Source: Geodermatophilus ruber (GTDB lineage: Bacteria; Actinomycetota; Actinomycetes; Mycobacteriales; Geodermatophilaceae). Taken from it: DNA of 64,000 nt. Made by a program: the position numbers and the translations under genes. Of this stretch, positions 9,109 to 12,006 are shown piece after piece. Each line of letters starts with the position of its first letter. Position 1 is the first letter of the stretch. A model generated the notes under the pieces. That model saw only the letters and a program-made list of their open reading frames with translations. It had not been told where the DNA came from and ran no database searches. Location of the stretch: positions 1-64,000 of the forward strand of contig NZ_FOSW01000001.1 of NCBI RefSeq assembly GCF_900114385.1, written 5' to 3'.

Positions 9109-11427
9109 CTACAGCTTCACCAGCGGGGCGTAGCGCAGCACCAGACGCTTCGTGCCGCCGGAGCCGAAGTCGACGGTCGCCTGAGCCTTGTCGCCGATGC
9201 CGTTGACCTCGACGACCGTGCCGAGCCCGAACGCGTCATGGCTGACCCGGTCGCCCACCTCCACCGAGATCACCTGACGGTTGCCTGCACCGCCCCGCAG
9301 CCCCCCGGTGGACAGGCCGGTGGCCGCCACCCGCCGCTGCGCCGAGGAGTACCCGGTCGACGGTGCGGGCGCCGGCTCCTTGCCGGCCCACTGCACCGTG
9401 TCCCCGGGCAGCTCGTCGAGGAACCGCGAGGGCGGGTTGTAGGCCGGCTGGCCCCAGCTGGTGCGCACCTGGGCGCGGGAGAGGTGCAGCCGCTCCTGGG
9501 CGCGGGTGATGCCGACGTAGGCCAGCCGGCGCTCCTCCTCGAGCTCCCGCGGGTCGCCGAGGGCGCGCAGGTGCGGGAAGACGCCGTCCTCCATCCCGGT
9601 GAGGAACACGACCGGGAACTCCAGCCCCTTGGCGGTGTGCAACGTCATCAGCGTGACGACGCCGGCCTCGTCCCCGGCGACCGGGATCTGGTCGGCGTCG
9701 GCGACCAGCGACACCTGCTCGAGGAAGTCGGTGACCGTGCCGCCGGGGTTGGCCGCCTCGAACTCCGCGGCGACCGAGATGAGCTCGTTGAGGTTGTCGA
9801 CCCGGCCCTCGTCCTGCGGGTCGGTGCTCGCCTGCAGCTCCGTGAGGTACCCGGTGCGGTCCAGGATGCTCTCCAGCAGCGCGGCCGGGCCCGACCCGGT
9901 CTCCGCCAGGTGCTCGAACTCCTCGAGCAGCGCGACGAACTCGCCGATCGCCTTCTGCGACCGGGTGGCCAGGCCGGGCACCTCCGCGGAGCGGCGCAGC
10001 GCCGAGGCGAAGGCGATCCGCTCCCGGTCGGCGAAGCCCTCGACGCAGGCCTCCGCCCGCTCCCCGATGCCGCGCTTGGGCGTGTTGAGGACCCGGCGCA
10101 GGCTCACCACGTCGGCAGGGTTGGCGACCACCTTGAGGTAGGCCAGCGCGTCGCGGACCTCCTTGCGCTCGTAGAAGCGCACTCCACCGACCACCTTGTA
10201 GGGCATGCCGACGCGGATGAACACCTCCTCGAAGACGCGGGAGGCGTTGTTGGTCCGGTAGAAGACGGCGATGTCCTTGGGCTGCGCCTTGCCCTCGTCG
10301 ACCAGCGCGTCGATCTGCTCGGCGACCCAGGCGGCCTCGTCGTGCTCGTTCTCGGCGACGTAGCCCTCGATCAGCTCGCCGTCGCCGGCGTCGGTCCACA
10401 GGTTCTTCGGGCGGCGGCCGGTGTTCCTGGAGATGACCTGGTTGGCCGCCCTGAGGATGCGCTGGGTGGAGCGGTAGTTCTGCTCCAGCAGGATCGTCGT
10501 GGCGTCGGGGTAGTCGCGCTCGAACTCGTCGATGTTGCGGATCGTCGCGCCGCGGAAGGCGTAGATGGACTGGTCGGCGTCGCCCACCACGCACAGCTCG
10601 GCCGGCGGCACCGGGCCCTCCCCCGTGCCGACCAGCTCGCGGACCAGCACGTACTGGGCGTGGTTGGTGTCCTGGTACTCGTCGACCAGCACGTGCCGGA
10701 AGCGCCGGCGGTAGTGCTCGGCGACGTCGGGGAACGCCTGCAACAGGTGCACCGTCGTCATGATCAGGTCGTCGAAGTCCAGCGCGTGCGCCTGACGCAG
10801 CCGCTGCTGGTAGAGCCGGTAGGTCTCCGCGAGCACCTTCTCCGGCGCCGTCTGCGGGACGTAGCTCTCCTCGTCGATCAGCTCGTTCTTCAGGTTCGAG
10901 ACCTGCGCGGCGAGGCTGCGGCCGGGGTAGCGCTTCGCGTCGAGGTCCAGATCGCGGGCGACCATGGTCATCAGCCGGACCGAGTCGCCCTGGTCGTAGA
11001 TCGTGAACGAGGACTTCAGGCCCAGCTTGGCCGCCTCGGCGCGCAGGATGCGCACGCACATCGAGTGGAAGGTCGACACCCACATCGCCCGGGCGCGGGG
11101 CCCGACCAGCGCGGCGACCCGCTCCTTCATCTCGCCGGCGGCCTTGTTGGTGAAGGTGATCGCCAGCACCTCACCCGGCTGCACGCCGCGAGCGCCCAGC
11201 AGGTAGGCGATCCGGTGGGTGAGCACGCGGGTCTTGCCGGAGCCGGCGCCGGCGACGATGAGCAGCGGGCTGCCCTCGTGGGCGACGGCCTGGCGCTGCG
11301 GGCCGTTGAGCCCGGCGAGCATGCGGTCCAGTTCCCGCCCCACGGAACCGGAGGCGGAGCGCGGCAGCGCCTCCGTACCTGGGAGGGACTTCTGGGCACC
11401 GGGAAGGGCCTGCTGGATGCTGCTCAT
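9109..11427 (-). CDS. pcrA: ATP-dependent DNA helicase PcrA/UvrD
   Basis: A 772-residue superfamily 1A 3'-5' helicase used in nucleotide excision repair and in clearing replication-transcription conflicts. It has a Q-motif region (LNGPQRQAVAH), Walker A GAGSGKT (Lys65), motif Ia ITFTNKAA, motif II DEYQDTN, motif III GDADQSIYAFRGA and motif IV LEQNYRST. Motif V TLHTAKGLEFPVVFL and motif VI RRLAYVGITRA follow. A C-terminal SH3/Tudor-like module (VGDRVSHDAFGLGTVVEV) resembles the RNA-polymerase-binding tail of PcrA. The N-terminus has about 30 extra polar residues before the core. It is divergent from aroQ. Confidence 0.96.
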   Translation of the reverse strand: MSSIQQALPGAQKSLPGTEALPRSASGSVGRELDRMLAGLNGPQRQAVAHEGSPLLIVAGAGSGKTRVLTHRIAYLLGARGVQPGEVLAITFTNKAAGEMKERVAALVGPRARAMWVSTFHSMCVRILRAEAAKLGLKSSFTIYDQGDSVRLMTMVARDLDLDAKRYPGRSLAAQVSNLKNELIDEESYVPQTAPEKVLAETYRLYQQRLRQAHALDFDDLIMTTVHLLQAFPDVAEHYRRRFRHVLVDEYQDTNHAQYVLVRELVGTGEGPVPPAELCVVGDADQSIYAFRGATIRNIDEFERDYPDATTILLEQNYRSTQRILRAANQVISRNTGRRPKNLWTDAGDGELIEGYVAENEHDEAAWVAEQIDALVDEGKAQPKDIAVFYRTNNASRVFEEVFIRVGMPYKVVGGVRFYERKEVRDALAYLKVVANPADVVSLRRVLNTPKRGIGERAEACVEGFADRERIAFASALRRSAEVPGLATRSQKAIGEFVALLEEFEHLAETGSGPAALLESILDRTGYLTELQASTDPQDEGRVDNLNELISVAAEFEAANPGGTVTDFLEQVSLVADADQIPVAGDEAGVVTLMTLHTAKGLEFPVVFLTGMEDGVFPHLRALGDPRELEEERRLAYVGITRAQERLHLSRAQVRTSWGQPAYNPPSRFLDELPGDTVQWAGKEPAPAPSTGYSSAQRRVAATGLSTGGLRGGAGNRQVISVEVGDRVSHDAFGLGTVVEVNGIGDKAQATVDFGSGGTKRLVLRYAPLVKL

Positions 11428-11567
11428 GACCCGCCCACTGTATGTCGGGCGGCCGACGAACCCGGCCCCCTCCGACCAGGCGCCACAGCGGTCCCGAGCG
11501 GCGCGCCCGACACACCGATCGGGGGCGGGGGTGGCGCTCGGCCCCCCGTCGTGCCAGACTTCCTGCC

Positions 11568-11630
11568 GTGCTCGCCTCGTTCAGCTTTTACTACGGCCAC
11601 CGGGTTCCGGTGTCCGTCACCGCTGGCTGA
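11568..11630 (+). CDS. Aromatic leader peptide of the aroQ attenuator
   Basis: A 20-codon open frame, GTG to TGA, encoding MLASFSFYYGHRVPVSVTAG. It places Phe, Phe, Tyr and Tyr codons (TTC, TTT, TAC, TAC at 11580-11594) within five codons. It is followed 16 bases later by a strong intrinsic terminator and then by the chorismate mutase gene, whose product channels chorismate to Phe and Tyr. A CAGACT hexamer at 11554-11559 could be a -10 box, which would make the peptide mRNA leaderless (inference). By analogy with trp and phe leaders, ribosome stalling at scarce Phe or Tyr would favour read-through. Confidence 0.75.
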   Translation: MLASFSFYYGHRVPVSVTAG

Positions 11631-11680
11631 GCACACGCCGCAACAGACGCCCCGGGCCCGAAGAGCCCGGGGCGTTTCTC
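11598..11680 (+). promoter_or_regulatory. Transcription attenuator upstream of aroQ
   Basis: A 6-pair hairpin CACCGG/CCGGTG (11598-11603 with 11607-11612) lies just after the Tyr codons. The segment 11601-11610 can instead pair with 11651-11660, the left arm of the terminator (9 of 10 positions, two of them G-U), so an antiterminator is possible. The terminator stem is 11647-11657 with 11665-11675. These mutually exclusive pairings are what a ribosome-mediated attenuator needs. The pairing is read by eye; no energies were calculated. Confidence 0.65.
11647..11678 (+). terminator. Intrinsic terminator of the aroQ leader
   Basis: A perfect 11-pair stem (11647-11657 with 11665-11675), a 7-base loop and a TTTCTCGTT tail. 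It sits between the leader peptide and aroQ, the expected place for an attenuator. Confidence 0.85.
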
Positions 11681-11727
11681 GTTCCCGGGGTCCGAGAGCC
11701 TTCCGAACGCCCCGGAGGACCACCGCC

Positions 11728-12006
11728 ATGACCAGCACGCTCGCCACCGACGCCGCTGCTTCCGCCGACGAGCAGATCGCCGGGCTGCGCGAGGAGATCG
11801 ACGACTGCGACGCCGAGATCATCCGGCTGGTGCAGCGCCGGCTGGCCGTCTCCCAGCAGATCGGCGAGCTGCGGCGCGCCGCCGGCGGGACCCGCCTGTC
11901 GCTGTCCCGCGAGCAGAAGGTGCTGGCCCGCTTCCAGGCCGCCCTCGGCCGTGACGGCGCGACCCTCGGGATGATGCTGCTCCGCCAGGGCCGCGGCCGG
12001 CTCTAG
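11728..12006 (+). CDS. aroQ: Chorismate mutase, AroQ type
   Basis: A 92-residue helical enzyme converting chorismate to prephenate, the branch point to phenylalanine and tyrosine. ATG 11728 has a GGAGG site upstream. It shows the AroQ pattern: ADEQIAGLREEIDDCDAEIIRLVQRRLAVSQ in helix 1, Arg residues for substrate carboxylates, then the SREQKVLARF segment. It resembles the short AroQ-delta form of mycobacteria, which is activated by complexing with DAHP synthase; that activation is family knowledge, not visible here. The upstream attenuator suggests control by Phe/Tyr supply. Confidence 0.88.
   Translation: MTSTLATDAAASADEQIAGLREEIDDCDAEIIRLVQRRLAVSQQIGELRRAAGGTRLSLSREQKVLARFQAALGRDGATLGMMLLRQGRGRL

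Follow-up and report, generated by a model that had tools for sequence, protein, structure and literature searches.

Upstream of the chorismate mutase gene aroQ of Geodermatophilus ruber lies a short leader which, judged from comparative sequence analysis, we consider with a probability of about 0.9 to be a ribosome-mediated transcription attenuator sensing charged tRNA-Phe and tRNA-Tyr. Very probably, this element raises aroQ expression when phenylalanine and tyrosine run short. The control codons, the reading frame, its stop codon, a hairpin adjoining the codons (hairpin A) and a terminator are conserved; hairpin A covaries, and the two arms of the predicted antiterminator (arms 2 and 3) co-evolve. 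All positions refer to the window, i.e. the whole 64,000-nt stretch of DNA that was analysed, in which a first-pass annotation had placed the element correctly to within one or two bases. The features are as follows.

9109-11427, minus strand: divergent uvrD/pcrA helicase gene
11555-11560, plus strand: -10-like promoter motif CAGACT, 7 nt 5' of the leader GTG, suggesting a leaderless start
11568-11630, plus strand: leader ORF, GTG at 11568, 20 codons, MLASFSFYYGHRVPVSVTAG, TGA at 11628-11630
11580-11594, plus strand: control codons TTC AGC TTT TAC TAC (Phe-Ser-Phe-Tyr-Tyr)
11586-11594, plus strand: conserved core TTT-x-TAC within the control codons
11593-11617, plus strand: hairpin A, 10 pairs and one mismatch, loop 11604-11606, from folding and covariation
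11601-11610, plus strand: antiterminator arm 2, spanning the upper parts of both arms of hairpin A and the loop between them
11646-11676, plus strand: intrinsic terminator hairpin GACGCCCCGGGC-CCGAAGA-GCCCGGGGCGTT, 12 pairs, -26.1 kcal/mol
11652-11660, plus strand: antiterminator arm 3, running from the terminator 5' arm into the beginning of the terminator loop
11714-11718, plus strand: aroQ Shine-Dalgarno sequence GGAGG, by eye
11728-12006, plus strand: aroQ, AroQ-delta-type chorismate mutase, ATG at 11728, with Pfam, NCBIfam and PDB matches

A gap of 300 nt separates uvrD/pcrA from aroQ, and both genes point outward from it, so the terminator is not the end of an upstream gene. The aroQ product matched PF01817 (CM_2) in Pfam (E = 6.2e-12), NF005894 in NCBIfam (E = 1.1e-28) and, in the PDB, the M. 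tuberculosis intracellular chorismate mutase 2qbv (E = 2.2e-19); it was the only PF01817 match in the whole genome at E <= 0.001. Residues 16-92 aligned with the Rv0948c structures, C-terminal GRGRL included. The relation to MtCM and the C-terminal Arg-Gly dyad, described in PMC4281200, assign the protein to the AroQ-delta type.

The 20-codon frame with two Phe and two Tyr within five codons, which the first-pass annotation had pointed out, was seen at 11568-11630 with its aromatic run at 11580-11594. The same-family sample comprised 96 genomes, 94 of them with an aroQ match, and the upstream regions of 90 of these 94 were taken (four were not fetched). The leader was present in all 90 regions, with the frame conserved and the stop at the same place. 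The core Phe was kept throughout (TTT in 86, TTC in 4), as were the core Tyr, the following Gly in any of its four synonymous codons (GGC, GGT, GGG, GGA), an Arg, a Pro and, ten codons past Phe, a Val encoded by four codons. The N-terminal codons were variable, and the residue after the core Phe was Tyr, Ser, Phe, Ala or Pro in 45, 19, 16, 6 and 4 loci, respectively. Since Phe, Tyr and Gly are invariant while their neighbours vary, the conserved core is Phe-x-Tyr-Gly; the doubled Phe and doubled Tyr are present in the window and are not conserved as such. TTT accounted for 0 of 159 Phe codons in the 17 coding-like ORFs of the window, and for 0 of 24 in uvrD; the leader thus favours a codon unused by the window's genes. 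Phe and Tyr were both found in 155 of 155 leaders of the wider collection and Trp in none (six codons ending at the Tyr-Gly position), which fits the two products of prephenate. In the manner of an attenuator, the short ORF carries control codons for the product amino acids.

The -10-like motif CAGACT, which had been proposed as part of a leaderless promoter, exists, one base further downstream than noted. In all 90 same-family loci a GTG with such a motif was found in frame 6, 7, 11 or 12 codons 5' of Phe, and CA-N-ACT stood 6-7 nt 5' of the GTG in 87. Over all families, 145 of 155 leaders had such a motif ending 6-8 nt 5' of the start, whereas among the other start-like codons of these stretches the count was 35 of 2554; the ten leaders lacking it belonged to the family-level groups f4 (four), f13 and f15 (two each), f9 and f2 (one each). 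The proposal of a leaderless promoter thus gained support, and leaderless initiation at the leader GTG is the start that these data suggest.

A relative of aroQ was detected in 279 of 298 sampled genomes of the order and in 54 of 158 of the class; in many genomes of the class an AroQ-delta is thus not detectable. We collected 180 aroQ upstream regions: the 90 of the same family, 40 from the order (out of 228 genomes outside the family), 20 from the class (out of 40 genomes outside the order) and 30 chosen ones; outside the family, sampling favoured high-scoring aroQ matches whose place was listed. A strict finder, which demands two or more aromatic codons, an aromatic-Gly pair at their end, and a start and stop in frame, matched 156 regions, one of which (L129) was judged a false leader. 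Among the 180 reverse complements it matched only 2, and each of ten Markov shuffles gave 0-6 matches in 180 regions, hence the leader is not a product of chance. Leader and terminator together were present in 155 of the 180 regions, under 18 family labels of the class Actinomycetes. Examples are RFYFYYGTGSPAAVGRA (f16), RFFYGTRTPAPVIA (f15), RRFFYGYRSAVPVG (f8), REFYFGYRTPVPVSG (f4) and LFTYGNRPTGCHGRAA (f31), where we take f16 to be Micromonospora-like, f15 Pseudonocardia-like, f31 Streptomyces-like and f8 Mycobacteriaceae-like, four f8 genomes being presumably Corynebacterium-like. The aromatic codons and stems were thus kept when the regions upstream of aroQ were aligned across relatives, as the first-pass annotation had recommended, and hairpin A was seen to covary.

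The 25 regions without strict leader and terminator include L122, L124, L125, L127, L129, L130, L141 and L145, and the rest are L164-L166, L169, L170, L174, L178, L182-L185 and L195-L200. Among them are all four Corynebacterium-like regions (L182-L185), 7 of the 11 other f8 regions, one of these being the rejected finder match, and four remote chorismate-mutase homologues. Variant aromatic leaders, left uncounted, were visible by eye in L122, L164, L165, L166, L170, L178, L195 and L196. Six further f8 regions were inspected; two had a leader and four had none.

A covariance model (R1), for which 42 sequences were used, all from the window's family, matched 99 of 121 whole genomes of the order (E <= 0.01). 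Outside the family, 43 genomes had both a listed best match and a known aroQ place (G150, whose match place was not listed, was left out); in 40 of them the best match fell in the 500 nt 5' of aroQ, and the exceptions were G159, where the aroQ site was the second match, G186 and G156. At least 11 order genomes whose aroQ place is known were without an R1 match, among them G097 and G135, in which a leader is visible by eye, so the model is not fully sensitive. Eight matches away from aroQ, taken from a longer list, were examined by eye; seven looked like gene-end terminators, and the eighth, L210, resembled a Thr leader (see below). In the G. ruber genome itself, a degenerate leader pattern found the aroQ copy and one match with two mismatches, the control count being 1 per strand. 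The scan of genome contigs gave four close loci only, and named Geodermatophilus and Klenkia records were among the relatives fetched. No separate aromatic leader was present within 600 nt upstream of the genome's own prephenate dehydratase gene or of its type II DAHP synthase gene, where the candidates listed were the end of the preceding reading frame.

Hairpin A corresponds to the small hairpin that had been noted after the Tyr codons; it is longer than described and begins inside the second Tyr codon. For the covariation count, 62 distinct 27-nt segments aligned without gaps (set A2, in which L117 was re-registered by 6 nt) were used out of 76 distinct segments of 27-28 nt; the 14 others, of different length or register, were eight Streptomyces-like segments (A3), five from f16 and L131. 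In A2, 88.9% of cells were paired (82.0 in shuffles), double-sided changes numbered 45 against 15.4 +/- 4.2 in shuffles, and the covariation score reached 0.209 against 0.107; neither of the last two values was equalled in any of 500 shuffles. Slid registers gave at most 15 cells with double-sided change. The number of pairs showing such a change was five, matched by 68 of 500 shuffles and thus not significant alone. Column pair 6-22 used six pair types and 7-21 five. In the A3 set, Tyr is encoded by TAT where the partner CCAT replaces CCGT, so that the pair is kept. A hairpin therefore adjoins the control codons, as in attenuators. Where the codon in its loop (11604-11606) was Asp, it was GAT in 51 of 51 family loci, and the coding-like ORFs of the window use GAC in 444 of 458 Asp codons; the constant choice of GAT against the habit of these ORFs likely reflects a constraint on the RNA.

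These changes bear on a nascent-peptide arrest, in which F-x-Y-G-H-R-x-P-V would stall the ribosome in response to a ligand and not to uncharged tRNA. In favour of such an arrest, conservation within the family extends beyond the aromatic residues, to Arg, Pro and Val in 90 of 90 loci each. But the codons concerned sit in hairpin A and covary as RNA; in L029, for example, Arg replaces His and Ala replaces Val together, and the pair is preserved. Moreover, the C-terminal residues are quite different in other families. In L131 (f15), L159 (f31) and five f16 loci, the frame differs from that of relatives after the Tyr-Gly codon, and in L159 it runs past the usual stop; the peptides diverge, yet the hairpin and terminator segments are kept (by eye, outside the covariation count), which argues against a signal in the nascent peptide. 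We therefore regard peptide arrest as very unlikely. The data argue for codons through Tyr that matter by the amino acids they encode, and for a downstream part that acts as RNA.

The terminator with T-rich tail that had been noted before aroQ is present, with 12 pairs instead of the 11 noted. Its tail, TTTCTCGTT, reaches 11683, and the T-tract is interrupted by C and G. In 155 of 156 leader loci a terminator-like hairpin began 44-69 nt 3' of the Tyr-Gly codon, the exception being the false leader L129; an intrinsic terminator thus stands between leader and gene, with the reservation that the two hairpins taken as terminators in f30 are weak (-9.9 and -11.9). In f16 loci (L111, L114 and others) we noticed by eye a second stem, CGTAGGTC...GACCTACG, 3' of hairpin A, which encloses the leader stop codon just 5' of the terminator.

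The leader might instead act by translational attenuation, governing access to the aroQ Shine-Dalgarno sequence and not termination. Compatible with this, both CCGGGG at 11685-11690 and the terminator 3' arm can pair, by eye, with CCCCGG at 11710-11715, a segment whose last two bases are also the first two of the Shine-Dalgarno sequence. Such a mode of action would however not account for the hairpin and T-rich tail being kept in 155 of 156 leader loci, nor for the co-evolution of arm 2 with the terminator 5' arm shown below, and as the sole mechanism we consider it about as improbable as peptide arrest. Many same-family relatives carry CCGGGGTCCGACGGCC at the place of 11684-11718, and a second, translational layer of control is possible there. 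An independently functional small protein next to an unrelated terminator has almost no probability, for although the short reading frame is conserved, its residues 5' of the aromatic core vary within the family and those 3' of it differ between families, the RNA pairing persists, and the element stands directly before aroQ in 40 of 43 genomes.

Transcription attenuation demands an antiterminator that excludes the terminator. The first-pass annotation had suggested an alternative pairing of 11601-11610 with 11651-11660; the partner is 11652-11660, with 9 pairs around one bulged base and -16.2 kcal/mol as a duplex of 11 x 19 nt, and the two arms co-evolve across 19 family-level groups. When terminators were swapped among these groups in 20,000 permutations, the cognate mean of arm 2 with the terminator 5' arm was -14.19 compared with -11.09 +/- 0.44 for permuted partners (z = -7.0; p = 0.00005, the lowest value that this number of permutations allows), a value obtained after the arms had been narrowed to the predicted pairing following a first, wider test that gave only p = 0.04. 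In that wider test the region-2 shuffle z averaged -0.76, and its weakness is due to long GC-rich arms pairing with much else. The own partner was favoured in 17 of the 19 groups, in f2 only slightly; f12 and f9 were the exceptions. Among eleven controls, z ranged from -2.3 to +2.1; they comprised arm 2 in reverse, five position shuffles, three other segments, the 5' arm in reverse and the terminator 3' arm, and the one at -2.3 (p = 0.009) was the hairpin A 5' arm, which shares three bases with arm 2. In G010, CGC replaces CGG in arm 2 and the terminator has CCGCG, so that by eye the pairing is preserved.

RNAalifold gave no covariation support for the stalled-state fold in the family alignment, and little covariation in single families. 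When the whole 5' arm of hairpin A is taken as covered, the family means were -25.3 for the terminator and -19.6 for the stalled-state fold, the comparison figure becoming -27.4 if the ribosome waits at the Phe codon. As the prediction thus gives the terminator, and not the stalled-state fold, the higher stability, antitermination would be a kinetic effect or depend on where the ribosome stalls. Likewise, the window RNA from 11601 to the terminator loop folded with -25.9 kcal/mol, near the -26.1 of the terminator, and from 11604 with -18.0; since the energy depends on the start, the switch would hinge on where the ribosome waits and on timing.

The following course of events is the one we favour. 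Transcription would start at the GTG, and the leader would be translated as a leaderless mRNA. With Phe and Tyr plentiful, the ribosome should reach the stop codon, where it would cover much of arm 2; arm 2 being occupied by hairpin A or by the ribosome itself, the terminator at 11646-11676 would form and transcription would stop short of aroQ. If tRNA-Phe or tRNA-Tyr is uncharged, the ribosome would wait at TTT or TAC. A ribosome covers about 12 nt beyond its A site. Because the Tyr codon is the foot of hairpin A, a ribosome waiting there would cover the 5' arm and open the hairpin. The freed arm 2 could then pair with the terminator 5' arm (11652-11660) while RNA polymerase is making the latter, and with the antiterminator formed the polymerase would continue into aroQ. 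Translation, stalling, read-through and the direction of the response are the parts of this scheme that we infer.

A T-box or metabolite riboswitch, which the T-box control of tyrosine genes in other species (PMC1262725) might suggest, is extremely unlikely, because neither was among the Rfam 15 matches at E <= 5 for the window region and at E <= 1 for six other loci, and all matches listed there were below their gathering scores.

In the searchable text of open papers and in Rfam we found no description of the aroQ leader; over the same ground this agrees with the first-pass annotation, which knew of no described case for a stand-alone AroQ in this group. A Phe/Tyr attenuator of aroQ is apparently undescribed so far; the mycobacterial copy may well be present in some table of unannotated small ORFs. 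The nearest known case, compared by description only, is another actinobacterial aromatic leader, AroR of C. glutamicum, whose Phe-Tyr-Phe codons precede the DAHP synthase gene aroF (PMC11802643, PMC7356990; work of Neshat et al. 2014). Under Phe limitation the ribosome stalls in AroR and transcription rises, whereas Tyr availability is without effect (PMC11802643, PMC7356990); in the aroQ leader, by contrast, Phe and Tyr codons are both invariant. AroR controls DAHP synthase and the present element, upstream of aroQ, a chorismate mutase; the latter differs from the AroR attenuator in its target. The Corynebacterium-like regions L182-L185 are without the strict aroQ leader, while C. glutamicum has AroR before aroF; the aromatic control point may have moved from aroQ to aroF in Corynebacterium-like genomes.

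The pheA gene of E. coli encodes a fused chorismate mutase-prephenate dehydratase, and its leader is Phe-only. The pheL-pheA attenuator (named in PMC11802643) is similar in being a Phe-sensing leader before a gene that bears a chorismate mutase; here, in contrast, the gene is a stand-alone AroQ-delta of Actinomycetes, initiation is probably leaderless, and the leader contains Phe and Tyr. The actinobacterial leaderless trpL, leuL and ilvL share the short ORF with control codons and, in several cases, a terminator with competing hairpins (PMC1262725, PMC8079986). They differ from the aroQ leader in their amino acids and genes. The title of Canestrari 2020 reportedly refers to Cys-rich uORFs as attenuators of operonic expression. 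In mycobacteria, leaderless uORFs of this kind are tied to amino-acid genes, with support from M. smegmatis ribosome profiling (PMC4633059; see also PMC9094748); they differ in concerning cysteine, and section 12 of PMC4633059 contains no aromatic example. An ilvB1 uORF is treated in PMC13236596, and in the accessible main text of PMC9094748 and PMC13236596 neither chorismate nor Rv0948c is mentioned. Other work covers attenuators of tyrA operons (PMC1173090), trp, ilvB and leu leaders of C. diphtheriae (PMC5784534) and, in C. glutamicum, aro genes counted among attenuated ones (PMC6892785). For S. lividans, the accessible part of PMC8079986 lists eight leaders, none for Phe or Tyr, and in Actinobacteria the part of the survey PMC1262725 available to us reports that Phe and Tyr operons were not seen to be preceded by a conserved RNA structure.

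The aroQ leader would supply Phe/Tyr-responsive control in the Actinomycetes, where that survey, in the same part, saw no such RNA structure (PMC1262725). Its interest lies in its breadth, in the position of the enzyme at a branch point and in the separability of codon function from RNA function, for which the frame-differing leaders are natural experiments, separating RNA from peptide function. The 18 family labels include groups that we take to be Streptomyces-, Micromonospora- and Mycobacterium-like. For natural-product producers drawing on aromatic amino acids, the element would offer a direct handle on flux. The mycobacterial chorismate mutase is poorly active until DAHP synthase binds (PMC4281200); regulation of the transcript and assembly of the complex would then converge on a single branch point.

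A wider reading, which we offer tentatively and hold to be rather less probable than its negation, would join these points. The leader would be an ancestral two-amino-acid sensor spanning the class; in the window's family it retains one Phe codon unused by the window's genes (UUU) and one Tyr codon that also forms the foot of the switch hairpin. Either amino acid running short, or UUU being decoded slowly through wobble (e.g. by under-modified tRNA-Phe), would then open aroQ. The complex of DAHP synthase and chorismate mutase would thereby be controlled at its activatable subunit; Corynebacterium-like genomes are without this control point, while C. glutamicum has its aromatic attenuator at DAHP synthase.

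Two minor observations concern leaders outside the family. The codon directly 5' of the aromatic cluster was CGA in 25 of 65 such leaders (e.g. L135, L119, L126, L189), compared with 0 of 90 inside the family; one guess is that CGA is a slow codon that sets the pace of the ribosome. In L210 (f15), the stretch at about 300-420 of 1201 holds a leader, MQRALVTTTPDPVPAR, that contains three Thr codons and is followed by a strong terminator. The frame 3' of it looks to us like a threonyl-tRNA synthetase (thrS-like), so that the element is probably a Thr attenuator; a thrL upstream of thrS has been reported in S. lividans (PMC8079986).
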